NCBI GenBank assembly: GCA_964019135.1
Contig: OZ025252.1
Coordinates: 48,520,959-48,584,958 of the forward strand
Source: Arenicola marina
Lineage: Eukaryota; Annelida; Polychaeta; Arenicolidae
Direction: 5' to 3'
Length of the DNA: 64,000 bases
Position numbers and translations under genes: made by a program. Position 1 is the first letter of the stretch. Every line of letters starts with the position of its first letter. A model generated the notes under the pieces. It ran no database searches, was not told where the DNA came from, and saw only the letters and a program-made list of their open reading frames with translations. Positions 1-64,000 of the stretch are shown piece by piece.

Positions 1-39
1 GGCGATGTATGTACGTAACCCGGGGTCTCTAGGGTAGTA
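1..39 (+). repeat. Reference 39 bp monomer (T class)
   Basis: This is a clean example of the commonest unit, beginning GGCGATG and ending AGGGTAGTA. Base 28 is T here (tctct); the other very common class has C (tccct), as in the monomer at 379-417. The unit holds three CpG sites (bases 3-4, 14-15, 21-22) and the palindromes TACGTA, CCCGGG and CTAG. 39 is divisible by three, which is why long stop-free frames arise on the minus strand. Confidence 0.97.
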
Positions 40-74
40 GGCGATGTACGTAACCCGGGGTCCCTAGAGTAGTA
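40..74 (+). repeat. 35 bp monomer, type I (one ATGT lost)
   Basis: This monomer reads gATGTACGTAA where the 39-mer reads gATGTATGTACGTAA, so one of two adjacent ATGT units is missing. The simplest explanation is slippage by one tetranucleotide. This is the most frequent 35 bp form and recurs at fixed places in every higher-order unit; another clean example is 344-378. This copy also carries the rarer ctagagtag ending, a useful landmark. Confidence 0.95.
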
Positions 75-230
75 GGCGATGTATGTACGTAACCCGGGGT
101 CCCTAGGATAGTAGGCGATGTATGTACGTAACCCTGGGTCTCTAGGGTAGTAGGCGATGTATGTACGTAACCCGGGGTCTCTAGGGTAGTAGGCGATGTA
201 TGTACGCAACCCGGGGTCCCTAGGGTAGTA

Positions 231-269
231 GGCGATGTATGTAATTAACCCGGGGTCCCTAGGGTAGTA
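231..269 (+). repeat. Marker monomer with gtaattaaccc
   Basis: This 39-mer has AATTA in place of ACGTA, which removes the central CpG and the TACGTA palindrome. It occurs in two sub-lineages: one followed by ggggtccctag (as here) and one followed by ggggtccccag (for example near 1,271, 6,455 and 11,366). The two have different neighbours, so they mark two different segments of the higher-order units. Confidence 0.93.
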
Positions 270-308
270 GGCGATGTATGTACGTAACCCGGGGTCTCTA
301 GGGTAGTA

Positions 309-343
309 GGCGATGTATGTAACCCGGGGTCCCTAGGGTAGTA
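309..343 (+). repeat. 35 bp monomer, type II (ACGT lost)
   Basis: This monomer reads gATGTATGTAACCC, so the ACGT tetranucleotide is missing instead of an ATGT. It is usually followed immediately by a type I 35-mer (344-378 here) and then by the cgagg marker monomer, a fixed trio seen repeatedly through the window. Confidence 0.94.
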
Positions 344-378
344 GGCGATGTACGTAACCCGGGGTCCCTAGGGTAGTA

Positions 379-1372: not shown

Positions 1373-1407
1373 GGCGATGTAAGTAACCCGGGGTCCCTAG
1401 GGTGGTA
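1373..1407 (+). repeat. 35 bp monomer, type III (gtaagtaaccc)
   Basis: This short monomer reads gatgtaagtaaccc. It almost always follows a type II 35-mer that starts CGCG rather than GGCG (1338-1372 here), which itself follows a gatggtacgc or gatagtacgc ending. The pair is a landmark found in most units (for example about 6,546-6,580, 12,303, 14,213 and 16,149). Two consecutive 35-mers shift the minus-strand reading frame by two steps. Confidence 0.93.
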
Positions 1408-5184: not shown

Positions 5185-7584
5185 GGCGATGTATGTACGT
5201 AACCCGGGGTCTCTAGGGTAGTAGGCGATGTACGTAACCCGGGGTCCCTAGAGTAGTAGGCGATGTATGTACGTAACCCGGGGTCCCTAGGATAGTAGGC
5301 GATGTATGTACGTAACCCTGGGTCTCTAGGGTAGTAGGCGATGTATGTACGTAACCCGGGGTCTCTAGGGTAGTAGGCGATGTATGTACGCAACCCGGGG
5401 TCCCTAGGGTAGTAGGCGATGTATGTAATTAACCCGGGGTCCCTAGGGTAGTAGGCGATGTATGTACGTAACCCGGGGTCTCTAGGGTAGTAGGCGATGT
5501 ATGTAACCCGGGGTCCCTAGGGTAGTAGGCGATGTACGTAACCCGGGGTCCCTAGGGTAGTAGGCGATGTATGTACGTAACGAGGAGTCCCTAGGGTAGT
5601 AGGCGATGTATGTACGTAACCCGAGGTCCCTAGGGTAGTAGGCGATGTATGTACGTAACCCGGGGTCCCTAGGGTAGTAGGCGATGTATGTACGTAACCC
5701 GGGGTCCCTAGGTTAGTAGGCGATGTATGTACGTAACCCGGGGTCTCTAGGGTAGTAGGCGATGTATGTACGTAACCCGGGGTCCCTAGGGTAGTAGGCG
5801 ATGTACGTAACCCGGGGTCCCTAGGGTAGTAGGCGATGTATGTACGTAACCCGGGGTTCCTAGGGTAGTAGGCGATGTATGTACGTGACCCGGGGTCCCT
5901 AGGGTAGTAGGCGATGTATGTACGTAACCCGGGGTCTCTAGGGTAGTAAGCGATGTATGTACGTAACCCGGGGTCCCTAGGGTAGTAGACGATGTATGTA
6001 CGTAACCCGGGGTCTCTAGGGTAGTAGGCGATGTACGTAACCCGGGGTCTCTAGGGTAGTAGGCGATGTATGTACGTAACCCGGGGTCTCTAGGGTAGTA
6101 GGCGATGTATGTACGTAACCCGGGGTCCCTAGGGTAGTAGGCGATGTATCTACCTAACCCGGGGTCTCTAGGGTAGTAAGCGATGTGTGTGCGTAACCCA
6201 GGGTCCCTAGGGTAGTAGGCGATGTACGTAACCCGGGGTCCCTAGGGTAGTAGGCGATGTATGTACTTAACCCGGGATCTCTAGGGTAGTAGGCGATGTA
6301 CGTAACCCGGGGTCTATAGGGTAGTAGGCGATGTGTGTACGTCACCCGGGGTCTCTAGGGTAGTAGGCGATGTATGTACGTAACCCGGGGTCCCTAGGGT
6401 AGTAGGCGATGTATGTACGTAACCCGGGGTCCCTAGGGTAGTAGGCGATGTATGTAATTAACCCGGGGTCCCCAGGGTAGTAGGCGATGTATGTACGTAA
6501 CCCGGGGTCTCTAGGATGGTACGCGATGTATGTAACCCGGGGTCCCTAGGGTAGTAGGCGATGTAAGTAACCCGGGGTCCCTAGGGTGGTAGGCGATGTA
6601 TGTACGTAATCCGGGGTCTCTAGGGTAGTGGGCGATGTATGTACGTGACCCGGGGTCCCTAGGGTAGTAGGCGATGTATGTACGTGACCCGGGGTCCCTA
6701 GGGTAGTAGGCGATGTATGTACGTAACCCGGGGTCTCTAGGGTAGTAAGCGATGTATGTACGTAACCCGGGGTCCCTAGGGTAGTAGACGATGTATGTAC
6801 GTAACCCGGGGTCTCTAGGGTAGTAGGCGATGTACGTAACCCGGGGTCTCTAGGGTAGTAGGCCATGTATGTACGTAACCCGGGGTCCCTAAGGTAGTAG
6901 ACGATGTATGTACGTAACCCGGGGTCTCTAGGGTAGTAGGCGATGCATGTACGTAACCCGGGGTCTCTACTGTAGTAGGCGATGTATGTACGTAACCCGG
7001 GGTCTCTAGGGTAGTAGGCGATGTATGTACGTAACCCTGGGTCCCTAGGGTAGTAGGCGATGTACGTAACCCGGGGTCCCTAGGGTAGTAGGCGATGTAT
7101 GTACTTAACCCGGGATCTCTAGGGTAGTAGGCGATGTACGTAACCCGGGGTCTATAGGGTAGTAGGCGATGTGTGTACGTCACCCGGGGTCTCTAGGGTA
7201 GTAGGCGATGTATGTACGTAACCCGGGGTCCCTAGGGTAGTAGGCGATGTATGTACGTAACCCGGGGTCCCTAGGGTAGTAGGCGATGTATGTACTTAAC
7301 CCGGGATCTCTAGGGTAGTAGGCGATGTACGTAACCCGGGGTCTATAGGGTAGTAGGCGATGTGTGTACGTCACCCGGGGTCTCTAGGGTAGTAGGCGAT
7401 GTATGTACGTAACCCGGGGTCCCTAGGGTAGTAGGCGATGTATGTACGTAACCCGGGGTCCCTAGGGTAGTAGGCGATGTATGTAATTAACCCGGGGTCC
7501 CCAGGGTAGTACGCGATGTATGTACGTAACCCGGGGTCTCTAGGATGGTACGCGATGTATGTAACCCGGGGTCCCTAGGGTAGT
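5185..7584 (+). repeat. Higher-order block A, second copy (offset 5,184 bp)
   Basis: Monomer order and rare variants follow positions 1-2400 base for base over most of the length. Small differences occur, such as the gtgggcg monomer near 6,629 where the first copy has the ordinary form near 1,445. With 39 and 35 bp units, 5,184 bp corresponds to 106 long plus 30 short monomers. Confidence 0.88.
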
Positions 7585-7585
7585 A
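6253..7585 (+). repeat. 1,333 bp tandem duplication, unit 1
   Basis: The segment from the cttaacccgggatc monomer at 6,253 to the gatggtacgc/35-mer group at 7,585 is repeated directly at 7,586-8,918. All landmarks (gtgggcg, ggccatg, actgtag, tctatagg, gtgtgtacgtcac) recur exactly 1,333 bp later. The length fits 27 long plus 8 short monomers. Block A at 1-2,400 lacks this duplication, so it arose after the 5,184 bp copy was made or was lost from the first copy. Confidence 0.92.
7091..7472 (+). repeat. 191 bp five-monomer unit, two tandem copies (representative)
   Basis: The unit is a 39-mer with cttaacccgggatc, a 35-mer with tctatagg, a 39-mer with gtgtgtacgtcac and two ordinary C-class 39-mers (4 x 39 + 35 = 191). 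Copies lie at 7,091-7,281 and 7,282-7,472. The same pair occurs near 8.4, 11.0, 19.5, 22.0, 28.3, 43.6, 46.1, 54.2 and 61.3 kb. Single copies occur near 6.3, 23.3, 29.4, 33.2, 40.0, 47.4 and 57.9 kb. Confidence 0.92.
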
Positions 7586-8918
7586 GGCGATGTATGTACT
7601 TAACCCGGGATCTCTAGGGTAGTAGGCGATGTACGTAACCCGGGGTCTATAGGGTAGTAGGCGATGTGTGTACGTCACCCGGGGTCTCTAGGGTAGTAGG
7701 CGATGTATGTACGTAACCCGGGGTCCCTAGGGTAGTAGGCGATGTATGTACGTAACCCGGGGTCCCTAGGGTAGTAGGCGATGTATGTAATTAACCCGGG
7801 GTCCCCAGGGTAGTAGGCGATGTATGTACGTAACCCGGGGTCTCTAGGATGGTACGCGATGTATGTAACCCGGGGTCCCTAGGGTAGTAGGCGATGTAAG
7901 TAACCCGGGGTCCCTAGGGTGGTAGGCGATGTATGTACGTAATCCGGGGTCTCTAGGGTAGTGGGCGATGTATGTACGTGACCCGGGGTCCCTAGGGTAG
8001 TAGGCGATGTATGTACGTGACCCGGGGTCCCTAGGGTAGTAGGCGATGTATGTACGTAACCCGGGGTCTCTAGGGTAGTAAGCGATGTATGTACGTAACC
8101 CGGGGTCCCTAGGGTAGTAGACGATGTATGTACGTAACCCGGGGTCTCTAGGGTAGTAGGCGATGTACGTAACCCGGGGTCTCTAGGGTAGTAGGCCATG
8201 TATGTACGTAACCCGGGGTCCCTAAGGTAGTAGACGATGTATGTACGTAACCCGGGGTCTCTAGGGTAGTAGGCGATGCATGTACGTAACCCGGGGTCTC
8301 TACTGTAGTAGGCGATGTATGTACGTAACCCGGGGTCTCTAGGGTAGTAGGCGATGTATGTACGTAACCCTGGGTCCCTAGGGTAGTAGGCGATGTACGT
8401 AACCCGGGGTCCCTAGGGTAGTAGGCGATGTATGTACTTAACCCGGGATCTCTAGGGTAGTAGGCGATGTACGTAACCCGGGGTCTATAGGGTAGTAGGC
8501 GATGTGTGTACGTCACCCGGGGTCTCTAGGGTAGTAGGCGATGTATGTACGTAACCCGGGGTCCCTAGGGTAGTAGGCGATGTATGTACGTAACCCGGGG
8601 TCCCTAGGGTAGTAGGCGATGTATGTACTTAACCCGGGATCTCTAGGGTAGTAGGCGATGTACGTAACCCGGGGTCTATAGGGTAGTAGGCGATGTGTGT
8701 ACGTCACCCGGGGTCTCTAGGGTAGTAGGCGATGTATGTACGTAACCCGGGGTCCCTAGGGTAGTAGGCGATGTATGTACGTAACCCGGGGTCCCTAGGG
8801 TAGTAGGCGATGTATGTAATTAACCCGGGGTCCCCAGGGTAGTACGCGATGTATGTACGTAACCCGGGGTCTCTAGGATGGTACGCGATGTATGTAACCC
8901 GGGGTCCCTAGGGTAGTA
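7586..8918 (+). repeat. 1,333 bp tandem duplication, unit 2
   Basis: Direct repeat of 6,253-7,585. It also aligns with 1,069-2,401 at an offset of 6,517 bp, which is 5,184 plus 1,333, as expected for a tandem duplication inside the second copy of block A. Confidence 0.92.
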
Positions 8919-12159: not shown

Positions 12160-15100
12160 TAGGCGATGTATGTACGTAACCCGGGGTCCCTAGGGTAGTA
12201 GGCGATGTATGTAATTAACCCGGGGTCCCCAGGGTAGTAGGCGATGTATGTACGTAACCCGGGGTCTCTAGGATGGTACGCGATGTATGTAAACCGGGGT
12301 CCCTAGGGTAGTAGGCGATGTAAGTAACCCGGGGTCCCTAGGGTAGTAGGCGATGTATGTACGTAACCCGGGGTCTCTAGGGTAGTAGGCGATGTATGTA
12401 CGTGACCCGGGGTCCCTAGGGTAGTAGGCGATGTATGTACGTGACCCGGGGTCCCTAGGGTAGTAGGCGATGTATGTACGTAACCCGGGGTCTCTAGGGT
12501 AGTAAGCGATGTATGTACGTAACCCGGGGTCCCTAGGGTAGTAGACGATGTATGTACGTAACCCGGGGTCTCTAGGGTAGTAGGCGATGTACGTAACCCG
12601 GGGTCTCTAGGGTAGTAGGCCATGTATGTACGTAACCCGGGGTCCCTTAGGTAGTAGACGATGTATGTACGTAACCCGGGGTCTCTAGGGTAGTAGGCGA
12701 TGTATGTACGTAACCCGGGGTCTCTAGGGTAGTAGGCGATGTATGTACGTAACCCGGGGTCTCTAGGGTAGTAGGCGATGTATGTACGTAACCCTGGGTC
12801 CCTAGGGTAGTAGGCGATGTACGTAACCCGGGGTCTCTAGGGTAGTAGGCGATGTATGCACGCAACCCGGGGTCCCTAGGGTAGTAGGCGATGTATGTAA
12901 TTAACCCGGGGTCCCTAGGGTAGTAGGCGATGTATGTACGTAACCCGGGGTCTCTAGGGTAGTAGGCGATGTATGTAACCCGGGGTCCCTAAGGTAGTAG
13001 GCGATGTACGTAACCCGGGGTCCCTAGGGTAGTAGGCGATGTATGTACGTAACGAGGGGTCCCTAGGGTAGTAGGCGATGTATGTACGTAACCCGAGGTC
13101 CCTAAGGTAGTAGGCGATGTATGTACGTAACCCGGGGTCCCTAGGGTAGTAGGCGATGTATGTACGTAACCCGGGGTCCCTAGGTTAGTAGGCGATGTAT
13201 GTACGTAACCCGGGGTCTCTAGGGTAGTAGGCGATGTACGTAACCCGGGGTCCCTAGAGTAGTAGGCGATGTATGTACGTAACCCGGGGTCCCTAGGATA
13301 GTAGGCGATGTATGTACGTAACCCGGGGTCCCTAGGGTAGTAGGCGATGTATGTACGTAACCCGGGGTCCCTAGGTTAGTAGGCGATGTATGTACGTAAC
13401 CCGGGGTCTCTAGGGTAGTAGGCGATGTACGTAACCCGGGGTCCCTAGAGTAGTAGGCGATGTATGTACGTAACCCGGGGTCCCTAGGATAGTAGGCGAT
13501 GTATGTACGTAACCCTGGGTCTCTAGGGTAGTAGGCGATGTATGTACGTAACCCGGGGTCCTGAGGGTAGTAGGCGATGTATGTACGTAATCCGGGGTCC
13601 CTAGGGTAGTAGGCGATGTATGTAATTAACCCGGGGTCCCTAGGGTAGTAGGCGATGTATGTACGTAACCCGGGGTCTCTAGGATATTACGCGATGTATG
13701 TAACCCGGGGTCCCTAGGGTAGTAGGCGATGTAAGTAACCCGGGGTCCCTAGGGTAGTAGGCGATGTATGTACGTAACCCGGGGTCTCTAGGGTAGTAGG
13801 CGATGTATGTACGTAACCCGGGGTTCCTAGGGTAGTAGGCGATGTATGTATGTAAGCCGGGGTCTCTAGGGTAGTAGGCGATGTATGTACGTAACCCGGG
13901 GTCTCTAGGGTAGTAGGCGATGTATGTACGTAACCCGGGGTCCCTAGGGTAGTAGACGATGTATGTACGTAACCCGGGGTCCCTAGGATAGTAGGCGATG
14001 TATGTACGTAACCCTGGGTCTCTAGGGTAGTAGGCGATGTATGTACGTAACCCGGGGTCCTGAGGGTAGTAGGCGATGTATGTACGTAATCCGGGGTCCC
14101 TAGGGTAGTAGGCGATGTATGTAATTAACCCGGGGTCCCTAGGGTAGTAGGCGATGTATGTACGTAACCCGGGGTCTCTAGGATAGTACGCGATGTATGT
14201 AACCCGGGGTCCCTAGGGTAGTAGGCGATGTAAGTAACCCGGGGTCCCTAGGGTAGTAGGCGATGTATGTACGTAACCCGGGGTCTCTAGGGTAGTAGGC
14301 GATGTATGTACGTAACCCGGGGTTCCTAGGGTAGTAGGCGATGTATGTATGTAAGCCGGGGTCTCTAGGGTAGTAGGCGATGTATGTACGTAACCCGGGG
14401 TCTCTAGGGTAGTAAGCGATGTATGTACGTAACCCGGGGTCCCTAGGGTAGTAGACGATGTATGTACGTAACCCGGGGTCTCTAGGGTAGTAGGCGATGT
14501 ACGTAACCCGGGGTCTCTAGGGTAGTAGGCCATGTATGTACGTAACCCGGGGTCCCTTAGGTAGTAGACGATGTATGTACGTAACCCGGGGTCTCTAGGG
14601 TAGTAGGCGATGTATGTACGTAACCCGGGGTCTCTAGGGTAGTAGGCGATGTATGTACGTAACCCGGGGTCTCTAGGGTAGTAGGCGATGTATGTACGTA
14701 ACCCTGGGTCCCTAGGGTAGTAGGCGATGTACGTAACCCGGGGTCTCTAGGGTAGTAGGCGATGTACGTAACCCGGGGTCCCTAGGGTAGTAGGCGATGT
14801 ATGTACGTAACCCGGGGTTCCTAGGGTAGTAGGCGATGTATGTACGTGACCCGGGGTCCCTAGGGTAGTAGGCGATGTATGTACGTAACCCGGGGTCCCT
14901 AGGGTAGTAGACGATGTATGTACGTAACCCGGGGTCTCTAGGGTAGTAGGCGATGTACGTAACCCGGGGTCTCTAGGGTAGTAGGCGATGTATGTACGTA
15001 ACCCGGGGTCTCTAGGGTAGTAGGCGATGTATGTACGTAACCCGGGGTCCCTAGGGTAGTAGGCGATGTATCTACCTAACCCGGGGTCTCTAGGGTAGTA

Positions 15101-16005
15101 AGCGATGTGTGTGCGTAACCCAGGGTTCCTAGGGTAGTAGGCGATGTACGTAACCCGGGGTCCCTAGGGTAGTAGGCGATGTATGTACTTAACCCGGGAT
15201 CTCTAGGGTAGTAGGCGATGTACGTAACCCGGGGTCTATAGGGTAGTAGGCGATGTGTGTACGTCACCCGGGGTCTCTAGGGTAGTAGGCGATGTATGTA
15301 CGTAACCCGGGGTCCCTAGGGTAGTAGGCGATGTATGTACGTAACCCGGGGTCCCTAGGGTAGTAGGCGATGTATGTAATTAACCCGGGGTCCCCAGGGT
15401 AGTAGGCGATGTATGTACGTAACCCGGGGTCTCTAGGATGGTACGCGATGTATGTAACCCGGGGTCCCTAGGGTAGTAGGCGATGTAAGTAACCCGGGGT
15501 CCCTAGGGTGGTAGGCGATGTATGTACGTAATCCGGGGTCTCTAGGGTAGTGGGCGATGTATGTACGTGACCCGGGGTCCCTAGGGTAGTAGGCGATGTA
15601 CGTAACCCGGGGTCTCTAGGGTAGTAGGCCATGTATGTACGTAACCCGGGGTCCCTAAGGTAGTAGACGATGTATGTACGTAACCCGGGGTCTCTAGGGT
15701 AGTAGGCGATGCATGTACGTAACCCGGGGTCTCTACTGTAGTAGGCGATGTATGTACGTAACCCGGGGTCTCTAGGGTAGTAGGCGATGTATGTACGTAA
15801 CCCTGGGCCCTAGGGTAGTAGGCGATGTACGTAACCCGGGGTCCCTAGGGTAGTAGGCGATGTATGTACTTAACCCGGGATCTCTAGGGTAGTAGGCGAT
15901 GTACGTAACCCGGGGTCTATAGGGTAGTAGGCGATGTGTGTACGTCACCCGGGGTCTCTAGGGTAGTAGGCGATGTATGTACGTAACCCGGGGTCCCTAG
16001 GGTAG
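12160..16005 (+). repeat. About 3,846 bp higher-order unit, copy 1
   Basis: Landmarks from about 12,160 to 15,590 recur 3,846 bp later (for example the gtaaaccgggg mutation near 12,290 and 16,136, and the type III 35-mer at 12,316 and 16,162). The same arrangement at 29.5-33.4 kb has an offset of 3,847 bp. The 1 bp difference is explained by a private single-base deletion near 15,808 (ccctgggccctag instead of ccctgggtccctag). 3,847 bp fits 78 long plus 23 short monomers. Confidence 0.87.
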
Positions 16006-19000
16006 TAGGCGATGTATGTACGTAACCCGGGGTCCCTAGGGTAGTAGGCGATGTATGTAATTAACCCGGGGTCCCCAGGGTAGTAGGCGATGTATGTACG
16101 TAACCCGGGGTCTCTAGGATGGTACGCGATGTATGTAAACCGGGGTCCCTAGGGTAGTAGGCGATGTAAGTAACCCGGGGTCCCTAGGGTAGTAGGCGAT
16201 GTATGTACGTAACCCGGGGTCTCTAGGGTAGTAGGCGATGTATGTACGTGACCCGGGGTCCCTAGGGTAGTAGGCGATGTATGTACGTGACCCGGGGTCC
16301 CTAGGGTAGTAGGCGATGTATGTACGTAACCCGGGGTCTCTAGGGTAGTAAGCGATGTATGTACGTAACCCGGGGTCCCTAGGGTAGTAGACGATGTATG
16401 TACGTAACCCGGGGTCTCTAGGGTAGTAGGCGATGTACGTAACCCGGGGTCTCTAGGGTAGTAGGCCATGTATGTACGTAACCCGGGGTCCCTTAGGTAG
16501 TAGACGATGTATGTACGTAACCCGGGGTCTCTAGGGTAGTAGGCGATGTATGTACGTAACCCGGGGTCTCTAGGGTAGTAGGCGATGTATGTACGTAACC
16601 CGGGGTCTCTAGGGTAGTAGGCGATGTATGTACGTAACCCTGGGTCCCTAGGGTAGTAGGCGATGTACGTAACATGGGGTCTCTAGGGTAGTAGGCGATG
16701 TATGCACGCAACCCGGGGTCCCTAGGGTAGTAGGCGATGTATGTAATTAACCCGGGGTCCCTAGGGTAGTAGGCGATGTATGTACGTAACCCGGGGTCTC
16801 TAGGGTAGTAGGCGATGTATGTAACCCGGGGTCCCTAGGGTAGTAGGCGATGTACGTAACCCGGGGTCCCTAGGGTAGTAGGCGATGTATGTACGTAACG
16901 AGGGGTCCCTAGGGTAGTAGGCGATGTATGTACGTAACCCGAGGTCCCTAGGGTAGTAGGCGATGTATGTACGTAACCCGGGGTCCCTAGGGTAGTAGGC
17001 GATGTATGTACGTAACCCGGGGTCCCTAGGTTAGTAGGCGATGTATGTACGTAACCCGGGGTCTCTAGGGTAGTAGGCGATGTACGTAACCCGGGGTCCC
17101 TAGAGTAGTAGGCGATGTATGTACGTAACCCGGGGTCCCTAGGATAGTAGGCGATGTATGTACGTAACCCGGGGTCCCTAGGGTAGTAGGCGATGTATGT
17201 ACGTAACCCGGGGTCCCTAGGTTAGTAGGCGATGTATGTACGTAACCCGGGGTCTCTAGGGTAGTAGGCGATGTACGTAACCCGGGGTCCCTAGAGTAGT
17301 AGGCGATGTATGTACGTAACCCGGGGTTCCTAGGATAGTAGGCGATGTATGTACGTAACCCTGGGTCTCTAGGGTAGTAGGCGATGTATGTACGTAACCC
17401 GGGGTCCTGAGGGTAGTAGGCGATGTATGTACGTAATCCGGGGTCCCTAGGGTAGTAGGCGATGTATGTAATTAACCCGGGGTCCCTAGGGTAGTAGGCG
17501 ATGTATGTACGTAACCCGGGGTCTCTAGGATAGTACGCGATGTATGTAACCCGGGGTCCCTAGGGTAGTAGGCGATGTAAGTAACCCGGGGTCCCTAGGG
17601 TAGTAGGCGATGTATGTACGTAACCCGGGGTCTCTAGGGTAGTAGGCGATGTATGTACGTAACCCGGGGTTCCTAGGGTAGTAGGCGATGTATGTATGTA
17701 AGCCGGGGTCTCTAGGGTAGTAGGCGATGTATGTACGTAACCCGGGGTCTCTAGGGTAGTAGGCGATGTATGTACGTAACCCGGGGTCCCTAGGGTAGTA
17801 GACGATGTATGTACGTAACCCGGGGTCCCTAGGATAGTAGGCGATGTATGTACGTAACCCTGGGTCTCTAGGGTAGTAGGCGATGTATGTACGTAACCCG
17901 GGGTCCTGAGGGTAGTAGGCGATGTATGTACGTAATCCGGGGTCCCTAGGGTAGTAGGCGATGTATGTAATTAACCCGGGGTCCCTAGGGTAGTAGGCGA
18001 TGTATGTACGTAACCCGGGGTCTCTAGGATAGTACGCGATGTATGTAACCCGGGGTCCCTAGGGTAGTAGGCGATGTAAGTAACCCGGGGTCCCTAGGGT
18101 AGTAGGCGATGTATGTACGTAACCCGGGGTCTCTAGGGTAGTAGGCGATGTATGTACGTAACCCGGGGTTCCTAGGGTAGTAGGCGATGTATGTATGTAA
18201 GCCGGGGTCTCTAGGGTAGTAGGCGATGTATGTACGTAACCCGGGGTCTCTAGGGTAGTAAGCGATGTATGTACGTAACCCGGGGTCCCTAGGGTAGTAG
18301 ACGATGTATGTACGTAACCCGGGGTCTCTAGGGTAGTAGGCGATGTACGTAACCCGGGGTCTCTAGGGTAGTAGGCCATGTATGTACGTAACCCGGGGTC
18401 CCTTAGGTAGTAGACGATGTATGTACGTAACCCGGGGTCTCTAGGGTAGTAGGCGATGTATGTACGTAACCCGGGGTCTCTAGGGTAGTAGGCGATGTAT
18501 GTACGTAACCCGGGGTCTCTAGGGTAGTAGGCGATGTATGTACGTAACCCTGGGTCCCTAGGGTAGTAGGCGATGTACGTAACCCGGGGTCTCTAGGGTA
18601 GTAGGCGATGTACGTAACCCGGGGTCCCTAGGGTAGTAGGCGATGTATGTACGTAACCCGGGGTTCCTAGGGTAGTAGGCGATGTATGTACGTGACCCGG
18701 GGTCCCTAGGGTAGTAGGCGATGTATGTACGTAACCCGGGGTCCCTAGGGTAGTAGACGATGTATGTACGTAACCCGGGGTCTCTAGGGTAGTAGGCGAT
18801 GTACGTAACCCGGGGTCTCTAGGGTAGTAGGCGATGTATGTACGTAACCCGGGGTCTCTAGGGTAGTAGGCGATGTATGTACGTAACCCGGGGTCCCTAG
18901 GATAGTAGGCGATGTATCTACCTAACCCGGGGTCTCTAGGGTAGTAAGCGATGTGTGTGCGTAACCCAGGGTCCCTAGGGTAGTAGGCGATGTACGTAAC

Positions 19001-19436
19001 CCGGGGTCCCTAGGGTAGTAGGCGATGTATGTACTTAACCCGGGATCTCTAGGGTAGTAGGCGATGTACGTAACCCGGGGTCTATAGGGTAGTAGGCGAT
19101 GTGTGTACGTCACCCGGGGTCTCTAGGGTAGTAGGCGATGTATGTACGTAACCCGGGGTCCCTAGGGTAGTAGGCGATGTATGTACGTAACCCGGGGTCC
19201 CTAGGGTAGTAGGCGATGTATGTAATTAACCCGGGGTCCCCAGGGTAGTAGGCGATGTATGTACGTAACCCGGGGTCTCTAGGATGGTACGCGATGTATG
19301 TAACCCGGGGTCCCTAGGGTAGTAGGCGATGTAAGTAACCCGGGGTCCCTAGGGTGGTAGGCGATGTATGTACGTAATCCGGGGTCTCTAGGGTAGTGGG
19401 CGATGTATGTACGTGACCCGGGGTCCCTAGGGTAGT
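16006..19436 (+). repeat. About 3,846 bp higher-order unit, copy 2 (partial)
   Basis: Follows copy 1 directly and matches it until about 19,436 / 15,590, where copy 1 passes into a ggccatg/actgtag segment and copy 2 keeps a second gtacgtgaccc monomer. A private gtaacatgggg mutation near 16,673 is absent from copy 1 and is shared with about 34,017, 36,805 and 40,768. Confidence 0.86.
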
Positions 19437-22376
19437 AGGCGATGTATGTACGTGACCCGGGGTCCCTAGGGTAGTAGGCGATGTATGTACGTAACCCGGG
19501 GTCCCTAGGGTAGTAGGCGATGTATGTACTTAACCCGGGATCTCTAGGGTAGTAGGCGATGTACGTAACCCGGGGTCTATAGGGTAGTAGGCGATGTGTG
19601 TACGTCACCCGGGGTCTCTAGGGTAGTAGGCGATGTATGTACGTAACCCGGGGTCCCTAGGGTAGTAGGCGATGTATGTACGTAACCCGGGGTCCCTAGG
19701 GTAGTAGGCGATGTATGTACTTAACCCGGGATCTCTAGGGTAGTAGGCGATGTACGTAACCCGGGGTCTATAGGGTAGTAGGCGATGTGTGTACGTCACC
19801 CGGGGTCTCTAGGGTAGTAGGCGATGTATGTACGTAACCCGGGGTCCCTAGGGTAGTAGGCGATGTATGTACGTAACCCGGGGTCCCTAGGGTAGTAGGC
19901 GATGTATGTAATTAACCCGGGGTCCCCAGGGTAGTACGCGATGTATGTACGTAACCCGGGGTCTCTAGGATGGTACGCGATGTATGTAACCCGGGGTCCC
20001 TAGGGTAGTAGGCGATGTAAGTAACCCGGGGTCCCTAGGGTAGTAGGCGATGTATGTACGTAATCCGGGGTCTCTAGGGTAGTAGGCGATGTATGTACGT
20101 AACCCGAGGTCTCTAGGGTAGTAGGCGATGTACGTAACCCGGGGTCTCTAGGGTAGTAGGCCATGTATGTACGTAACCCGGGGTCCCAAAGGTAGTAGAC
20201 GATGTATGTACGTAACCCGGGGTCTCTAGGGTAGTAGGCGATGTATGTACGTAACCCGGGGTCTCTAGGGTAGTAGGCGATGTATGTACGTAACCCGGGG
20301 TCTCTAGGGTAGTAGGCGATGTATGTACGTAACCCTGGGTCCCTAGGGTAGTAGGCGATGTACGTAACCCGGGGTCTCTAGGGTAGTAGGCGATGTATGT
20401 ACGCAACCCGGGGTCCCTAGGGTAGTAGGCGATGTATGTAATTAACCCGGGGTCCCTAGGGTAGTAGGCGATGTATGTACGTAACCCGGGGTCTCTAGGG
20501 TAGTAGGCGATGTATGTAACCCGGGGTCCCTAGGGTAGTAGGCGATGTACGTAACCCGGGGTCCCTAGGGTAGTAGGCGATGTATGTACGTAACGAGGAG
20601 TCCCTAGGGTAGTAGGCGATGTATGTACGTAACCCGAGGTCCCTAGGGTAGTAGGCGATGTATGTACGTAACCCGGGGTCCCTAGGGTAGTAGGCGATGT
20701 ATGTACGTAAGCCGGGGTCCCTAGGTTAGTAGGCGATGTATGTACGTAACCCGGGGTCTCTAGGGTAGTAGGCGATGTATGTACGTAACCCGGGGTCCCT
20801 AGGGTAGTAGGCGATGTACGTAACCCGGGGTCCCTAGGGTAGTAGGCGATGTATGTACGTAACCCGGGGTTCCTAGGGTAGTAGGCGATGTATGTACGCG
20901 ACCCGGGGTCCCTAGGGTAGTAGGCGATGTATGTACGTAACCCGGGGTCTCTAGGGTAGTAAGCGATGTATGTACGTAACCCGGGGTCCCTAGGGTAGTA
21001 GACGATGTATGTACGTAACCCGGGGTCTCTAGGGTAGTAGGCGATGTACGTAACCCGGGGTCTCTAGGGTAGTAGGCGATGTATGTACGTAACCCGGGGT
21101 CTCTAGGGTAGTAGGCGATGTATGTACGTAACCCGGGGTCCCTAGGGTAGTAGGCGATGTATCTACGTAACCCGGGGTCTCTAGGGTAGTAAGCGATGTG
21201 TGTGCGTAACCCAGGGTCCCTAGGGTAGTAGGCGATGTACGTAACCCGGGGTCCCTAGGGTAGTAGGCGATGTATGTACTTAACCCGGGATCTCTAGGGT
21301 AGTAGGCGATGTACGCAACCCGGGGTCTATAGGGTAGTAGGCGATGTGTGTACGTCACCCGGGGTCTCTAGGGTAGTAGGCGATGTATGTACGTAACCCG
21401 GGGTCCCTAGGGTAGTAGGCGATGTATGTACGTAACCCGGGTTCCCTAGGGTAGTAGGCGATGTATGTAATTAACCCGGGGTCCCCAGGGTAGTAGGCGA
21501 TGTATGTACGTAATCCGGGGTCTCTAGGGTAGTGGGCGATGTATGTACGTGACCCGGGGTCCCTAGGGTAGTAGGCGATGTATGTACGTGACCCGGGGTC
21601 CCTAGGGTAGTAGGCGATGTATGTACGTAACCCGGGGTCTCTAGGGTAGTAAGCGATGTATGTACGTAACCCGGGGTCCCTAGGGTAGTAGACGATGTAT
21701 GTACGTAACCCGGGGTCTCTAGGGTAGTAGGCGATGTACGTAACCCGGGGTCTCTAGGGTAGTAGGCCATGTATGTACGTAACCCGGGGTCCCTAAGGTA
21801 GTAGACGATGTATGTACGTAACCCGGGGTCTCTAGGGTAGTAGGCGATGCATGTACGTAACCCGGGGTCTCTACTGTAGTAGGCGATGTATGTACGTAAC
21901 CCGGGGTCTCTAGGGTAGTAGGCGATGTATGTACGTAACCCTGGGTCCCTAGGGTAGTAGGCGATGTACGTAACCCGGGGTCCCTAGGGTAGTAGGCGAT
22001 GTATGTACTTAACCCGGGATCTCTAGGGTAGTAGGCGATGTACGTAACCCGGGGTCTATAGGGTAGTAGGCGATGTGTGTACGTCACCCGGGGTCTCTAG
22101 GGTAGTAGGCGATGTATGTACGTAACCCGGGGTCCCTAGGGTAGTAGGCGATGTATGTACGTAACCCGGGGTCCCTAGGGTAGTAGGCGATGTATGTACT
22201 TAACCCGGGATCTCTAGGGTAGTAGGCGATGTACGTAACCCGGGGTCTATAGGGTAGTAGGCGATGTGTGTACGTCACCCGGGGTCTCTAGGGTAGTAGG
22301 CGATGTATGTACGTAACCCGGGGTCCCTAGGGTAGTAGGCGATGTATGTACGTAACCCGGGGTCCCTAGGGTAGTA
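19437..22376 (+). repeat. A-like and B-like mixed segment
   Basis: From about 19,490 onward the order matches 54,187-57,073 at an offset of 34,697 bp, and all of it matches the later copy at offset 24,096. It contains paired 191 bp units near 19,511-19,892, the cccaaaggtag mutation near 20,187, the cgaggag marker near 20,592 and the actgtag marker near 21,873. The cccaaagg and gtacgcgaccc mutations recur only in the 24,096 bp copy (near 44,283 and 44,994). Confidence 0.85.
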
Positions 22377-22641
22377 GGCGATGTATGTAATTAACCCGGG
22401 GTCCCCAGGGTAGTAGGCGATGTATGTACGTAACCCGGGGTCTCTAGGATGGTACGCGATGTATGTAACCCGGGGTCCCTAGGGTAGTAGGCGATGTAAG
22501 TAACCCGGGGTCCCTAGGGTAGTAGGCGATGTATGTACGTAATCCGGGGTCTCTAGGGTAGTGGGCGATGTATGTACGTGACCCGGGGTCCCTAGGGTAG
22601 TAGGCGATGTATGTACGTGACCCGGGGTCCCTAGGGTAGTA
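22377..22641 (+). repeat. 265 bp tandem duplication, unit 1
   Basis: Seven monomers from the gtaattaaccc/ggggtccccag monomer through gatggtacgc, types II and III 35-mers, gtaatccgggg, gtgggcg and gtacgtgaccc are repeated at 22,642-22,906. The length fits 5 long plus 2 short monomers. The duplication also exists at 46,473-46,737 and 46,738-47,002, so it predates the 24 kb duplication. Confidence 0.92.
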
Positions 22642-22906
22642 GGCGATGTATGTAATTAACCCGGGGTCCCCAGGGTAGTAGGCGATGTATGTACGTAACC
22701 CGGGGTCTCTAGGATGGTACGCGATGTATGTAACCCGGGGTCCCTAGGGTAGTAGGCGATGTAAGTAACCCGGGGTCCCTAGGGTAGTAGGCGATGTATG
22801 TACGTAATCCGGGGTCTCTAGGGTAGTGGGCGATGTATGTACGTGACCCGGGGTCCCTAGGGTAGTAGGCGATGTATGTACGTGACCCGGGGTCCCTAGG
22901 GTAGTA
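22642..22906 (+). repeat. 265 bp tandem duplication, unit 2
   Basis: Direct repeat of 22,377-22,641. The related segments at 28.7 kb and 57.2 kb carry only one copy. This changes the offset to the 28.2-32 kb region from 6,330 to 6,065 bp, exactly 265 bp. Confidence 0.92.
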
Positions 22907-42400: not shown

Positions 42401-45400
42401 TGTATGTACGTAACCCGGGGTCTCTAGGGTAGTAGGCGATGTACGTAACCCGGGGTCTCTAGGGTAGTAGGCCATGTATGTACGTAACCCGGGGTCCCTT
42501 AGGTAGTAGACGATGTATGTACGTAACCCGGGGTCTCTAGGGTAGTAGGCGATGTATGTACGTAACCCGGGGTCTCTAGGGTAGTAGGCGATGTATGTAC
42601 GTAACCCGGGGTCTCTAGGGTAGTAGGCGATGTATGTACGTAACCCTGGGTCCCTAGGGTAGTAGGCGATGTACGTAACCCGGGGTCTCTAGGGTAGTAG
42701 GCGATGTACGTAGCCCGGGGTCCCTAGGGTAGTAGGCGATGTATGTACGTAACCCGGGGTTCCTAGGGTAGTAGGCGATGTATGTACGTGACCCGGGGTC
42801 CCTAGGGTAGTAGGCGATGTATGTACGTAACCCGGGGTCCCTAGGGTAGTAGACGATGTATGTACGTAACCCGGGGTCTCTAGGGTAGTAGGCGATGTAC
42901 GTAACCCGGGGTCTCTAGGGTAGTAGGCGATGTATGTACGTAACCCGGGGTCTCTAGGGTAGTAGGCGATGTATGTACGTAACCCGGGGTCCCTAGGATA
43001 GTAGGCGATGTATCTACCTAACCCGGGGTCTCTAGGGTAGTAAGCGATGTGTGTGCGTAACCCAGGGTCCCTAGGGTAGTAGGCGATGTACGTAACCCGG
43101 GGTCCCTAGGGTAGTAGGCGATGTATGTACTTAACCCGGGATCTCTAGGGTAGTAGGCGATGTACGTAACCCGGGGTCTATAGGGTAGTAGGCGATGTGT
43201 GTACGTCACCCGGGGTCTCTAGGGTAGTAGGCGATGTATGTACGTAACCCGGGGTCCCTAGGGTAGTAGGCGATGTATGTACGTAACCCGGGGTCCCTAG
43301 GGTAGTAGGCGATGTATGTAATTAACCCGGGGTCCCCAGGGTAGTAGGCGATGTATGTACGTAACCCGGGGTCTCTAGGATGGTACGCGATGTATGTAAC
43401 CCGGGGTCCCTAGGGTAGTAGGCGATGTAAGTAACCCGGGGTCCCTAGGGTGGTAGGCGATGTATGTACGTAATCCGGGGTCTCTAGGGTAGTGGGCGAT
43501 GTATGTACGTGACCCGGGGTCCCTAGGGTAGTAGGCGATGTATGTACGTGACCCGGGGTCCCTAGGGTAGTAGGCGATGTATGTACGTAACCCGGGGTCC
43601 CTAGGGTAGTAGGCGATGTATGTACTTAACCCGGGATCTCTAGGGTAGTAGGCGATGTACGTAACCCGGGGTCTATAGGGTAGTAGGCGATGTGTGTACG
43701 TCACCCGGGGTCTCTAGGGTAGTAGGCGATGTATGTACGTAACCCGGGGTCCCTAGGGTAGTAGGCGATGTATGTACGTAACCCGGGGTCCCTAGGGTAG
43801 TAGGCGATGTATGTACTTAACCCAGGATCTCTAGGGTAGTAGGCGATGTACGTAACCCGGGGTCTATAGGGTAGTAGGCGATGTGTGTACGTCACCCGGG
43901 GTCTCTAGGGTAGTAGGCGATGTATGTACGTAACCCGGGGTCCCTAGGGTAGTAGGCGATGTATGTACGTAACCCGGGGTCCCTAGGGTAGTAGGCGATG
44001 TATGTAATTAACCCGGGGTCCCCAGGGTAGTACGCGATGTATGTACGTAACCCGGGGTCTCTAGGATGGTACGCGATGTATGTAACCCGGGGTCCCTAGG
44101 GTAGTAGGCGATGTAAGTAACCCGGGGTCCCTAGGGTAGTAGGCGATGTATGTACGTAATCCGGGGTCTCTAGGGTAGTAGGCGATGTATGTACGTAACC
44201 CGAGGTCTCTAGGGTAGTAGGCGATGTACGTAACCCGGGGTCTCTAGGGTAGTAGGCCATGTATGTACGTAACCCGGGGTCCCAAAGGTAGTAGACGATG
44301 TATGTACGTAACCCGGGGTCTCTAGGGTAGTAGGCGATGTATGTACGTAACCCGGGGTCTCTAGGGTAGTAGGCGATGTATGTACGTAACCCGGGGTCTC
44401 TAGGGTAGTAGGCGATGTATGTACGTAACCCTGGGTCCCTAGGGTAGTAGGCGATGTACGTAACCCGGGGTCTCTAGGGTAGTAGGCGATGTATGTACGC
44501 AACCCGGGGTCCCTAGGGTAGTAGGCGATGTATGTAATTAACCCGGGGTCCCTAGGGTAGTAGGCGATGTATGTACGTAACCCGGGGTCTCTAGGGTAGT
44601 AGGCGATGTATGTAACCCGGGGTCCCTAGGGTAGTAGGCGATGTACGTAACCCGGGGTCCCTAGGGTAGTAGGCGATGTATGTACGTAACGAGGAGTCCC
44701 TAGGGTAGTAGGCGATGTATGTACGTAACCCGAGGTCCCTAGGGTAGTAGGCGATGTATGTACGTAACCCGGGGTCCCTAGGGTAGTAGGCGATGTATGT
44801 ACGTAAGCCGGGGTCCCTAGGTTAGTAGGCGATGTATGTACGTAACCCGGGGTCTCTAGGGTAGTAGGCGATGTATGTACGTAACCCGGGGTCCCTAGGG
44901 TAGTAGGCGATGTACGTAACCCGGGGTCCCTAGGGTAGTAGGCGATGTATGTACGTAACCCGGGGTTCCTAGGGTAGTAGGCGATGTATGTACGCGACCC
45001 GGGGTCCCTAGGGTAGTAGGCGATGTATGTACGTAACCCGGGGTCTCTAGGGTAGTAAGCGATGTATGTACGTAACCCGGGGTCCCTAGGGTAGTAGACG
45101 ATGTATGTACGTAACCCGGGGTCTCTAGGGTAGTAGGCGATGTACGTAACCCGGGGTCTCTAGGGTAGTAGGCGATGTATGTACGTAACCCGGGGTCTCT
45201 AGGGTAGTAGGCGATGTATGTACGTAACCCGGGGTCCCTAGGGTAGTAGGCGATGTATCTACGTAACCCGGGGTCTCTAGGGTAGTAAGCGATGTGTGTG
45301 CGTAACCCAGGGTCCCTAGGGTAGTAGGCGATGTACGTAACCCGGGGTCCCTAGGGTAGTAGGCGATGTATGTACTTAACCCGGGATCTCTAGGGTAGTA

Positions 45401-58965: not shown

Positions 58966-61601
58966 TAGGGTAGTAGGCGATGTATGTACGTAACCCTGGG
59001 TCCCTAGGGTAGTAGGCGATGTACGTAACCCGGGGTCTCTAGGGTAGTAGGCGATGTATGCACGCAACCCGGGGTCCCTAGGGTAGTAGGCGATGTATGT
59101 AATTAACCCGGGGTCCCTAGGTTAGTAGGCGATGTATGTACGTAACCCGGGGTCTCTAGGGTAGTAGGCGATGTATGTAACCCGGGGTCTCTAGGGTAGT
59201 AGGCGATGTACGTAACCCGGGGTCCCTAGTGTAGTAGGCGATGTATGTACGTAACGAGGGGTCCCTAGGGTAGTAGGCGATGTATGTACGTAACCCGAGG
59301 TCCCTAGGGTAGTAGGCGATGTATGTACGTAACCCGGGGTCCCTAGGGTAGTAGGCGATGTATGTACGTAACCCGGGGTCCCTAGGTTAGTAGGCGATGT
59401 ATGTACGTAACCCGGGGTCTCTAGGGTAGTAGGCGATGTACGTAACCCGGGGTCCCTAGAGTAGTAGGCGATGTATGTACGTAACCCGGGGTCCCTAGGA
59501 TAGTAGGCGATGTGTGTACGTAACCCTGGGTCTCTAGGGTAGTAGGCGATGTATGTACGTAACCCGGGGTCTCTAGGGTAGTAGGCGATGTATGTACGCA
59601 ACCCGGGGTCCCTAGGGTAGTAGGCGATGTATGTAATTAACCCGGGGTCCCTAGGGTAGTAGGCGATGTATGTACGTAACCCGGGGTCTCTAGGGTAGTA
59701 GGCGATGTATGTAACCCGGGGTCCCTAGGGTAGTAGGCGATGTACGTAACCCGGGGTCCCTAGGGTAGTAGGCGATGTATGTACGTAACGAGGAGTCCCT
59801 AGGGTAGTAGGCGATGTATGTACGTAACCCGAGGTCCCTAGGGTAGTAGGCGATGTATGTACGTAACCCGGGGTCCCTAGGGTAGTAGGCGATGTATGTA
59901 CGTAACCCGGGGTCCCTAGGTTAGTAGGCGATGTATGTACGTAACCCGGGGTCCTAGGGTAGTAGGCGATGTATGTACGTAACCCGGGGTCCCTAGGGTA
60001 GTAGGCGATGTACGTAACCCGGGGTCCCTAGGGTAGTAGGCGATGTATGTACGTAACCCGGGGTTCCTAGGGTAGTAGGCGATGTATGTACGTGACCCGG
60101 GGTCCCTAGGGTAGTAGGCGATGTATGTACGTAACCCGGGGTCTCTAGGGTAGTAAGCGATGTATGTACGTAACCCGGGGTCCCTAGGGTAGTAGACGAT
60201 GTATGTACGTAACCCGGGGTCTCTAGGGTAGTAGGCGATGTACGTAACCCGGGGTCTCTAGGGTAGTAGGCGATGTATGTACGTAACCCGGGGTCTCTAG
60301 GGTAGTAGGCGATGTATGTACGTAACCCGGGGTCCCTAGGGTAGTAGGCGATGTATCTACCTAACCCGGGGTCTCTAGGGTAGTAAGCGATGTGTGTGCG
60401 TAACCCAGGGTCCCTAGGGTAGTAGGCGATGTACTTAACCCGGGATCTCTAGGGTAGTAGGCGATGTACGTAACCCGGGGTCTATAGGGTAGTAGGCGAT
60501 GTGTGTACGTCACCCGGGGTCTCTAGGGTAGTAGGCGATGTATGTACGTAACCCGGGGTCCCTAGGGTAGTAGGCGATGTATGTACGTAACCCGGGGTCC
60601 CTAGGGTAGTAGGCGATGTATGTAATTAACCCGGGGTCCCCAGGGTAGTAGGCGATGTATGTACGTAACCCGGGGTCTCTAGGATGGTACGCGATGTATG
60701 TAACCCGGGGTCCCTAGGGTAGTAGGCGATGTAAGTAACCCGGGGTCCCTAGGGTGGTAGGCGATGTATGTACGTAATCCGGGGTCTCTAGGGTAGTGGG
60801 CGATGTATGTACGTGACCCGGGGTCCCTAGGGTAGTAGGCGATGTATGTACGTGACCCGGGGTCCCTAGGGTAGTAGGCAATGTATGTACGTAACCCGGG
60901 GTCTCTAGGGTAGTAAGCGATGTATGTACGTAACCCGGGGTCCCTAGGGTAGTAGACGATGTATGTACGTAACCCGGGGTCTCTAGGGTAGTAGGCGATG
61001 TACGTAACCCGGGGTCTCTAGGGTAGTAGGCCATGTATGTACGTAACCCGGGGTCCCTAAGGTAGTAGACGATGTATGTACGTAACCCGGGGTCTCTAGG
61101 GTAGTAGGCGATGCATGTACGTAACCCGGGGTCTCTACTGTAGTAGGCGATGTATGTACGTAACCCGGGGTCTCTAGGGTAGTAGGCGATGTATGTACGT
61201 AACCCTGGGTCCCTAGGGTAGTAGGCGATGTACGTAACCCGGGGTCCCTAGGGTAGTAGGCGATGTATGTACTTAACCCGGGATCTCTAGGGTAGTAGGC
61301 GATGTACGTAACCCGGGGTCTATAGGGTAGTAGGCGATGTGTGTACGTCACCCGGGGTCTCTAGGGTAGTAGGCGATGTATGTACGTAACCCGGGGTCCC
61401 TAGGGTAGTAGGCGATGTATGTACGTAACCCGGGGTCCCTAGGGTAGTAGGCGATGTATGTACTTAACCCGGAATCTCTAGGGTAGTAGGCGATGTACGT
61501 AACCCGGGGTCTATAGGGTAGTAGGCGATGTGTGTACGTCACCCGGGGTCTCTAGGGTAGTAGGCGATGTATGTACGTAACCCGGGGTCCCTAGGGTAGT
61601 A

Positions 61602-62248
61602 GGCGATGTATGTACGTAACCCGGGGTCCCTAGGGTAGTAGGCGATGTATGTAATTAACCCGGGGTCCCCAGGGTAGTACGCGATGTATGTACGTAACCC
61701 GGGGTCTCTAGGATGGTACGCGATGTATGTAACCCGGGGTCCCTAGGGTAGTAGGCGATGTAAGTAACCCGGGGTCCCTAGGGTAGTAGGCGATGTATGT
61801 ACGTAATCCGGGGTCTCTAGGGTAGTAGGCGATGTATGTACGTAACCCGAGGTGTCTAGGGTAGTAGGCGATGTACGTAACCCGGGGTCTCTAGGGTAGT
61901 AGGCCATGTATGTACGTAACCCGGGGTCCCTAAGGTAGTAGACGATGTATGTACGTAACCCGGGGTCTCTAGGGTAGTAGGCGATGTATGTACGTAACCC
62001 GGGGTCTCTAGGGTAGTAGGCGATGTATGTACGTAACTCGGGGTCTCTAGGGTAGTAGGCGATGTATGTACGTAACCCTGGGTCCCTAGGGTAGTAGGCG
62101 ATGTACGTAACCCGGGGTCTCTAGGGTAGTAGGCGATGTATGTACGCAACCCGGGGTCCCTAGGGTAGTAGGCGATGTATGTAATTAACCCGGGGTCCCT
62201 AGGGTAGTAGGCGATGTATGTACGTAACCCGGGGTCTCTAGGGTAGTA
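61602..62248 (+). repeat. 647 bp tandem duplication, unit 1
   Basis: From an ordinary C-class 39-mer through the ggggtccccag/gtacgcg, gatggtacgc, cccgaggtgtc, ggccatg and gtaactcgggg landmarks, repeated at 62,249-62,895. The length fits 13 long plus 4 short monomers. Copy 1 of the 7,046 bp unit has only one such segment, so this is younger than the 7,046 bp duplication or was lost there. Confidence 0.92.
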
Positions 62249-62895
62249 GGCGATGTATGTACGTAACCCGGGGTCCCTAGGGTAGTAGGCGATGTATGTA
62301 ATTAACCCGGGGTCCCCAGGGTAGTACGCGATGTATGTACGTAACCCGGGGTCTCTAGGATGGTACGCGATGTATGTAACCCGGGGTCCCTAGGGTAGTA
62401 GGCGATGTAAGTAACCCGGGGTCCCTAGGGTAGTAGGCGATGTATGTACGTAATCCGGGGTCTCTAGGGTAGTAGGCGATGTATGTACGTAACCCGAGGT
62501 GTCTAGGGTAGTAGGCGATGTACGTAACCCGGGGTCTCTAGGGTAGTAGGCCATGTATGTACGTAACCCGGGGTCCCTAAGGTAGTAGACGATGTATGTA
62601 CGTAACCCGGGGTCTCTAGGGTAGTAGGCGATGTATGTACGTAACCCGGGGTCTCTAGGGTAGTAGGCGATGTATGTACGTAACTCGGGGTCTCTAGGGT
62701 AGTAGGCGATGTATGTACGTAACCCTGGGTCCCTAGGGTAGTAGGCGATGTACGTAACCCGGGGTCTCTAGGGTAGTAGGCGATGTATGTACGCAACCCG
62801 GGGTCCCTAGGGTAGTAGGCGATGTATGTAATTAACCCGGGGTCCCTAGGGTAGTAGGCGATGTATGTACGTAACCCGGGGTCTCTAGGGTAGTA
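62249..62895 (+). repeat. 647 bp tandem duplication, unit 2
   Basis: Direct repeat of 61,602-62,248; the two copies look identical over the landmarks I compared, which suggests a recent event. Confidence 0.92.
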
Positions 62896-64000
62896 GGCGA
62901 TGTATGTAACCCGGGGTCCCTAGGGTAGTAGGCGATGTACGTAACCCGGGGTCCCTAGGGTAGTAGGCGATGTATGTACGTAACGAGGAGTCCCTAGGGT
63001 AGTAGGCGATGTATGTACGTAACCCGAGGTCCCTAGGGTAGTAGGCGATGTATGTACGTAACCCGGGGTCCCTAGGGTAGTAGGCGATGTATGTACGTAA
63101 GCCGGGGTCCCTAGGTTAGTAGGCGATGTATGTACGTAACCCGGGGTCTCTAGGGTAGTAGGCGATGTATGTACGTAACCCGGGGTCCCTAGGGTAGTAG
63201 GCGATGTACGTAACCCGGGGTCCCTAGGGTAGTAGGCGATGTATGTACGTAACCCGGGGTTCCTAGGGTAGTAGGCGATGTATGTACGTGACCCGGGGTC
63301 CCTAGGGTAGTAGGCGATGTATGTACGTAACCCGGGGTCTCTAGGGTAGTAAGCGATGTATGTACGTAACCCGGGGTCCCTAGGGTAGTAGACGATGTAT
63401 GTACGTAACCCGGGTTCTCTAGGGTAGTAGGCGATGTACGTAACCCGGGGTCTCTAGGGTAGTAGGCGATGTATGTACGTAACCCGGGGTCTCTAGGGTA
63501 GTAGGCGATGTATGTACGTAACCCGGGGTCCCTAGGGTAGTAGGCGATGTATCTACGTAACCCGGGGTCTCTAGGGTAGTAAGCGATGTGTGTGCGTAAC
63601 CCAGGGTCCCTAGGGTAGTAGGCGATGTACATAACCCGGGGTCCCTAGGGTAGTAGGCGATGTATGTACTTAACCCGGGATCTCTAGGGTAGTAGGCGAT
63701 GTACGTAACCCGGGGTCTATAGGGTAGTAGGCGATGTGTGTACGTCACCCGGGGTCTCTAGGGTAGTAGGCGATGTATGTACGTAACCCGGGGTCCCTAG
63801 GGTAGTAGGCGATGTATGTACGTAACCCGGGTTCCCTAGGGTAGTAGGCGATGTATGTAATTAACCCGGGGTCCCCAGGGTAGTAGGCGATGTATGTACG
63901 TAATCCGGGGTCTCTAGGGTAGTGGGCGATGTATGTACGTGACCCGGGGTCCCTAGGGTAGTAGGCGATGTATGTACGTGACCCGGGGTCCCTAGGGTAG

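Follow-up and report, generated by a model that had tools for sequence, protein, structure and literature searches.

Minisatellites are built of units of about 10–100 bp set head to tail; among satellites, the mouse major satellite is a nested short-monomer case, satellite I of bovids and cervids has a centromeric position, and a homogeneous core with diverged edges is typical of alpha satellite. In the literature, minisatellites are given a mean length of 0.5–30 kb (PMC8122249), and human GC-rich variable number tandem repeats (VNTRs) with units longer than 15 bp show a 21-fold enrichment in the 5 Mb nearest chromosome ends, with faulty meiotic recombination and unequal crossover suggested as causes of VNTR variability (PMC7608644). 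Human satellite 3 DYZ1 has a 3.6-kb HSat3 unit derived from pentanucleotides and extends over 7–98 Mb (PMC4022460), and satellite I consists of 31-bp subrepeats, with a unit of ~0.9 kb and 19 subrepeats in one Neotropical deer (PMC7835801). A survey of candidate centromere repeats, whose main text uses none of the words annelid, Helobdella, and Capitella, reports that higher-order structure is prevalent over a wide phylogenetic span (PMC4053949). Here we analyze a tandem array of the polychaete Arenicola marina, sampled as a window of 64,000 nucleotides (the whole stretch under study; C5:48,520,959–48,584,958, C5 being contig OZ025252.1) from one assembled haplotype of an 867-Mb, 762-contig genome. 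An annelid origin is also indicated by the mitochondrial frames, read in the order nad3-nad2-cox1-cox2-cox3-nad6-cob-atp6 with cox1 confirmed by a family search, an order that fits the annelid pattern, and by a globin exon that matches PDB chains of extracellular or giant hemoglobins, which are annelid proteins. An original prediction, made from the letters of this window, had described at least five nested levels of repetition and an unusual depth of higher-order structure. The best reading of the array is instead a single-locus, non-coding giant minisatellite, which probably grew by ordinary repeated block duplications and losses in a minisatellite-rich subterminal region.

The window (positions 1–64000, with this and all features below on the plus strand) is wholly one head-to-tail array, with a period of 39, 1678.9 copies, and 89% matches by Tandem Repeats Finder (TRF). 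Its monomer is GGCGATGTATGTACGTAACCCGGGGTCCCTAGGGTAGTA (39 bp), and decomposition yielded 1678 monomers (1306 of 39 bp, 369 of 35 bp, and 3 of 38 bp), among which 96 sequences are distinct. Both the 39-bp repeat array and the 4-bp repeat inside its monomer had been predicted and are borne out, the latter by 35-bp forms that lack one 4-bp unit of a TGTA/TGTA/CGTA stretch. Three such forms account for 356, 116, and 83 of the 568 35-bp monomers in the main array, with 13 others.

This window is an internal part of an array whose full span is ~110 kb (C5:~48,499,430–48,601,735 plus 48,605,874–48,609,268; about −21,528 to 88,310 in window coordinates), or ~106 kb of repeat sequence proper when an interrupting long terminal repeat (LTR) element is excluded. 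The main part holds 2681 monomers and a right remnant another 88, with 211 distinct sequences among the 2769; the observed values set against simulation below are 199 distinct types and a homozygosity of 0.046. GC content is 55%. A 35-bp pattern allowed at most three mismatches matched 2154 times genome-wide, never on the reverse strand, and the count inside the array was likewise 2154; because the two counts are equal, the 39-bp family has, at that sensitivity, a single locus. The array lies ~1.3 Mb from the telomere: the contig ends 1.3 Mb beyond it, with at least 5 kb of terminal TTAGGG.

Monomer order within this array is strongly structured. In the main part, 91% is covered by exact repeats 8 or more units long, and 83% of monomers fall within long near-identical runs, the longest spanning 249 monomers; one shuffle of monomer order gave no long runs. 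Copies in the 20 longest run pairs differ by 0–0.3%. This off-diagonal structure is well beyond chance, so that a random monomer order, the outcome under which layered repetition would have been dismissed, does not describe the array. Perfect tandem duplications occur at 5, 7, 8, 15, 17, 18, 35, and 73 monomers, and near-perfect duplications at 50 and 104. In 100 shuffles examined for units of 4, 5, 7, 8, 15, 17, and 18 monomers, not one perfect tandem of these sizes arose. The kilobase units of the prediction exist, at 1333 bp (35 monomers), 1910 bp (50), 2787 bp (73), and 3964 bp (104). From its range of smaller units (117–647 bp), those of 191 bp (5 monomers), 7 monomers, and 647 bp (17 monomers) stand; the 117-bp, 3-monomer unit is weak as a perfect tandem, with 2 places against a shuffle mean of 0.18 and maximum of 2. 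Perfect tandems of 2 monomers (78 bp) are weak too, with 2 places (shuffle mean 4.7, maximum 11). The commonest small multi-monomer unit is the 5-monomer perfect tandem, found at 17 places in the array and 15 in the window (for example, 1907–2288), many of them probably copies of one event; a period of 191 over the window was also reported by TRF. The 7-monomer perfect tandem occurs at 3 places, 2 of them in the window. Longer examples are the perfect tandem duplications of 35 monomers at 6253–8918 (2 × 1333 bp) and of 17 monomers at 61602–62895 (2 × 647 bp). In length, the 191-bp unit (4 × 39 + 35) is near nucleosome spacing, which may be coincidence.

These unit sizes form a spread and do not amount to a hierarchy of ordered levels. 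Monomer identity is highest at a lag of 632 monomers, where it reaches 14.9%; random pairs give 4.6%, and none of 50 shuffles goes above 6.8%. Identity stays below 15% at every lag up to 1199 monomers, and no array-wide higher-order period was found over that range. Monomers at lag 5 differ by 3.66 columns, against 3.88 for random pairs (shuffle SD 0.03), an effect that is real but small, and a periodic higher-order structure of 5 monomers was rejected on its size. The layering is beyond chance but without fixed levels: the five nested levels of the original prediction dissolve into block duplications of many sizes, and its unusual depth of nested structure is not well supported.

The prediction also placed a copy of a block of about 15.5 kb at a distance of 24.1 kb. 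The copy is real, with runs at lags of 24,095 and 24,057 bp that cover 9.2 + 4.2 kb and carry 3 and 2 substitutions (0.03–0.05%); its size and offset change once later duplications are undone. Removal of one 73-monomer copy renders a 104-monomer pair exactly adjacent, with 1 monomer different, and removal of one 104-monomer unit then brings the 24.1-kb pair onto a 17,344-bp diagonal. The lag of 24,095 bp is thus accounted for by 17,344 + 3,964 + 2,787, that is, by two later tandem duplications added to the earlier offset. After this undoing, the two blocks, A and B, align over 420 monomers, of which 409 are identical and 10 different, with 1 gap, at an offset of 455 monomers (17,344 bp) that includes a 35-monomer spacer.

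By this monomer alignment, block A (12162–28172; 420 monomers, 16.0 kb) is the source or sister of block B (29506–52229), from which it is separated by the spacer (28173–29505; 1333 bp) and which has been enlarged by the 104- and 73-monomer duplications. The two copies of the 104-monomer unit (3964 bp) lie at 31872–35835 and 38623–42586, and those of the 73-monomer unit (2787 bp), the first the same as the second, at 33887–36673 and 36674–39460. A 50-monomer unit (1910 bp) stands in tandem inside A at 24314–28133, and the same tandem is found in B at 48371; because it is present in both, it is most likely older than the A/B copy. The simplest order of events runs from the 50-monomer duplication through the 16-kb block copy to the 104-monomer and then the 73-monomer duplication. 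Greedy undoing of tandem events recovered 9 at the strictest setting, reducing 2681 monomers to 2215, and 10, 30, and 31 under looser settings and another order. The array, its single locus (at the sensitivity used), the block duplications of many sizes, and the order in which the 104- and 73-monomer duplications stand to the copying of A and B are direct observations.

Set beside the systems described above, the array in this one haplotype carries the tested structural features of a minisatellite/VNTR and is unusual mainly in size. Its units are 39/35 bp and all on one strand; its family, with all 2154 of 2154 matches in one array, accords with the one or few loci of minisatellites; and variant monomers are interspersed along it, together with internal block duplications. 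The ~106 kb of repeat exceeds the usual 0.5–30 kb, a size that is descriptive rather than strictly defining. Like human subtelomeric GC-rich VNTRs (PMC7608644), the array has a unit of tens of base pairs, head to tail, near a chromosome end; unlike them, it has a GC content of 55%, under the 60% class described there (PMC7608644). With DYZ1 it shares larger units grown from a short base repeat, but that satellite has one described unit over 7–98 Mb (PMC4022460), where the present array is irregular in its units and limited to one locus of ~106 kb. Satellite I similarly organizes a short subrepeat into longer units, but with one regular longer unit where the present array has one locus and irregular blocks (PMC7835801). 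The organization of short base repeats into larger units is already known from these two satellites (PMC4022460, PMC7835801), a precedent overlooked when the original prediction drew its contrast with higher-order satellites of ~170-bp monomers. Blocks of several monomers amplified together also recall the higher-order repeats of alpha satellite (PMC8122249); unlike there, no multimeric unit, the defining feature of such arrays, repeats along the array (best lag 14.9%), and the monomer is 39 bp. The original prediction did not recognize the family; three 15–17 bp pieces of the monomer occurred in no paper of the literature searched, and titles from the literature search named neither the 39-bp family nor an annelid satellite.

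Under growth by block duplication and loss, many tandem duplications and losses of blocks of a few to several hundred monomers would have produced the ~106 kb of repeat, the likely agent being unequal recombination, whether through exchange between sister chromatids or homologues or through break-induced repair. Recombination rather than slippage would then have driven growth, losses would have balanced gains, and no function would be needed. With every new event landing within older ones or straddling them, nested levels would appear. The account resembles the unequal-crossover model of Smith as described in PMC8122249. Singleton monomers are distributed much as expected if recombination homogenizes the core, with an excess at the left edge, where the first 5-kb bin has 19 of 119, and in the bin of the right remnant, which has 11 of 82; most core bins have 0–6 of ~131, and one has 15 of 132. 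Forward simulations of random tandem duplication and deletion used log-uniform blocks of 1–500 monomers (15 runs). In the 6 of 15 runs with 0.5–1 mutations per event (u), maximum-lag identity was 0.08–0.17 (observed 0.149), the longest run 104–353 monomers (observed 249), and coverage 0.70–0.90 (observed 0.83); the same runs bracket the number of singletons, and the number of types and the homozygosity each fall within their range. A simple random process thus brackets the main statistics one by one, which argues against an unusual depth of structure.

Several results weigh against this account. No simulated setting yields 199 types and a homozygosity of 0.046 together: u = 0.5 gives 125–148 types, u = 1 gives a homozygosity of 0.021–0.025, and the 9 runs at u = 0.2, 2, and 4 do not reproduce the number of types. 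Short-only duplication with low mutation also makes long runs, of 130–222 monomers. Singletons are not in excess at the right end of the main part (0 of 70 in the last bin). The A/B pair is not strictly tandem: a 35-monomer spacer is left, of which only 21 of 35 monomers equal their expected partners, the 35 just upstream of A, and 4 of 35 match the monomers that directly follow B. With so partial a match, there is no proof that the block was copied by a simple tandem exchange; the copying may have been conversion-like or break-induced, or the spacer may have been replaced later. After 10 events are undone, all 24 remaining run pairs listed are separated by 11–1128 monomers. In favor of the account, neighboring arrays behave alike: a comparison with 16 of the longer flanking arrays, each set against five shuffles of period-length chunks, found the longest exact repeat above all five shuffles in 14 (at least two-fold in 12), which again speaks against unusual depth at this locus, but fixed-period chunk shuffling loses phase after indels, so this control is understated; the exceptions, not above their shuffles, are a 54-bp array on the left and a 71-bp array on the right.

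Among mechanistic alternatives, conversion-like or break-induced copying to non-adjacent places, in preference to unequal crossing-over, is the one we take most seriously, while regarding it as rather unlikely to be the main process. It would accommodate the 35-monomer spacer of the A/B pair and the gaps in all 24 remaining pairs; against it, the clearest recent events (73, 104, 50, 35, 18, 17, and 15 monomers) are exactly tandem, and later losses or insertions can space tandem pairs, as seen for the 24.1-kb pair. Replication slippage of single or few monomers is a highly improbable builder of the array. The 4-bp length variants do resemble slippage inside the monomer, and adjacent identical monomers occur, but their 132 places are near chance (shuffle mean 113, maximum 134). 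Lag-1 identity, at 1.14 of chance, falls within the 0.45–2.55 of 12 runs allowing one-monomer blocks, whereas lag-2 identity is far under chance (ratio 0.12) and just below the 0.21–2.11 of the same 12 runs; across simulations with minimum blocks of 1, 3, 5, and 10 monomers (12 runs each), these two lags give mixed answers. Simulations with blocks of 1–5 monomers only (6 runs) raise best-lag identity to 0.41–0.70, against the observed 0.149. That part of the large-scale repetition is an assembly artifact, a block joined twice, is improbable as well. Although 13 kb of copies differing by only 0.03–0.05% is hard for assemblers, the A/B copies can be told apart by particular monomers and by a length difference of one monomer, B has two further duplications absent from A, and many smaller blocks behave alike.

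We also regard as very remote the prospect of a true multi-level higher-order satellite with a function, for example, as a centromere or chromatin boundary. Such a satellite would fit the large homogeneous core with its more diverged left edge and right remnant, and also the CpG observed/expected ratio of 1.06, against 0.59 in the left flank, with no excess of CpG transitions, whereby the array may be unmethylated in the germ line. It is opposed by the lack of a repeating higher-order unit, by the single genome locus at the sensitivity used, by a location among a DEG/ENaC-channel-like frame, LINE-like reverse transcriptase, and many other minisatellites, and by one-step variants in 36 of 39 columns; the position of this single locus ~1.3 Mb from the telomere makes centromere identity, with the CENP-A binding of alpha-satellite-type arrays, unlikely. 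Variant types number 3.5 per CpG site and 10.4 per other C/G site, the latter figure being inflated by column 28 (~6.9 without it), and among one-step rare variants the two classes are about equal (7 at 6 CpG sites, 16 at 16 others). Together, CpG content and the absence of a transition excess tentatively suggest low germ-line methylation or youth.

Tests on the monomer itself gave no sign of function, whether in reading frames, in folding relative to shuffles, or in the spread of variants over columns. Of 93 rare monomer types, 85 are one step from a commoner type, and these spread over the columns without a clearly protected motif; the TAGTA end (columns 35–39) is less variable than other columns across distinct types and takes 6 of the 85 one-step rare mutations, against 10.9 under an even spread. 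No long reading frame was found, the largest stop-to-stop frame listed being 281 aa, and a coding function was rejected on the grounds that stop-to-stop frames are only of middle length and each 35-bp monomer puts the reading frame out of register. Folding energies of the monomer are no better than those of shuffles (z +1.3 to +1.6), and a special DNA fold was rejected likewise. The monomer also contains TAGGGT, one telomere-like 6-mer, judged by eye to be chance.

The surroundings are themselves repeat-rich. Tandem repeat makes up 55% of the left and 89% of the right ~70-kb flank (C5:48,430,001–48,499,430 and 48,609,280–48,680,000). As a weak control, four gene loci from a globin search, which lie on other chromosomes and total 13 kb, have 0–16%. 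The flanks form a mosaic of many minisatellites side by side with differing units of ~11–80 bp, including 22 kb of a 54-bp, 13.7 kb of an 18-bp, 7.9 kb of a 16-bp, and 5.6 kb of a 35-bp unit. Two of these neighbors counted genome-wide had 374 of 374 and 127 of 127 matches at this locus, at that sensitivity. In the right flank, two 27-bp units look alike by eye. Between flank arrays lie frames of LINE-like reverse transcriptase and endonuclease, and ~23 kb left of the array a single open frame on the minus strand (C5:48,475,131–48,476,804) gives a full DEG/ENaC match (Pfam ASC, E 2.5e-58); of the 7 flank frames scanned, 4 had no Pfam match. The element interrupting the array is a 4.13-kb LTR retrotransposon at C5:48,601,741–48,605,873 (window coordinates 80,783–84,915, outside the window), with two identical 274-bp LTRs and a 5-bp target-site duplication, CAGGG. 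Its insertion appears recent. Judged by eye, it is a putative Ty3/gypsy-like element.

A more speculative extension, which we hold as possible but doubtful, is that this subterminal stretch acts as a domain in which minisatellites continually arise and expand, one of them to more than 100 kb with its CpGs retained. If so, the cause would be regional, for example, frequent breaks with out-of-register repair in open, unmethylated chromatin, and the order of duplications in the 39-bp array would be a relative-time record of the region.

The kind of array described here is already known, the monomer itself was not found in the literature searched, and the array gives no sign of a new function. Its value is as a very long minisatellite, assembled and coded, whose nested duplications can be put in order by simple addition and subtraction. 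It shows that what look like nested levels need no ordered hierarchy behind them, and models of how satellites grow can usefully be tested on it.

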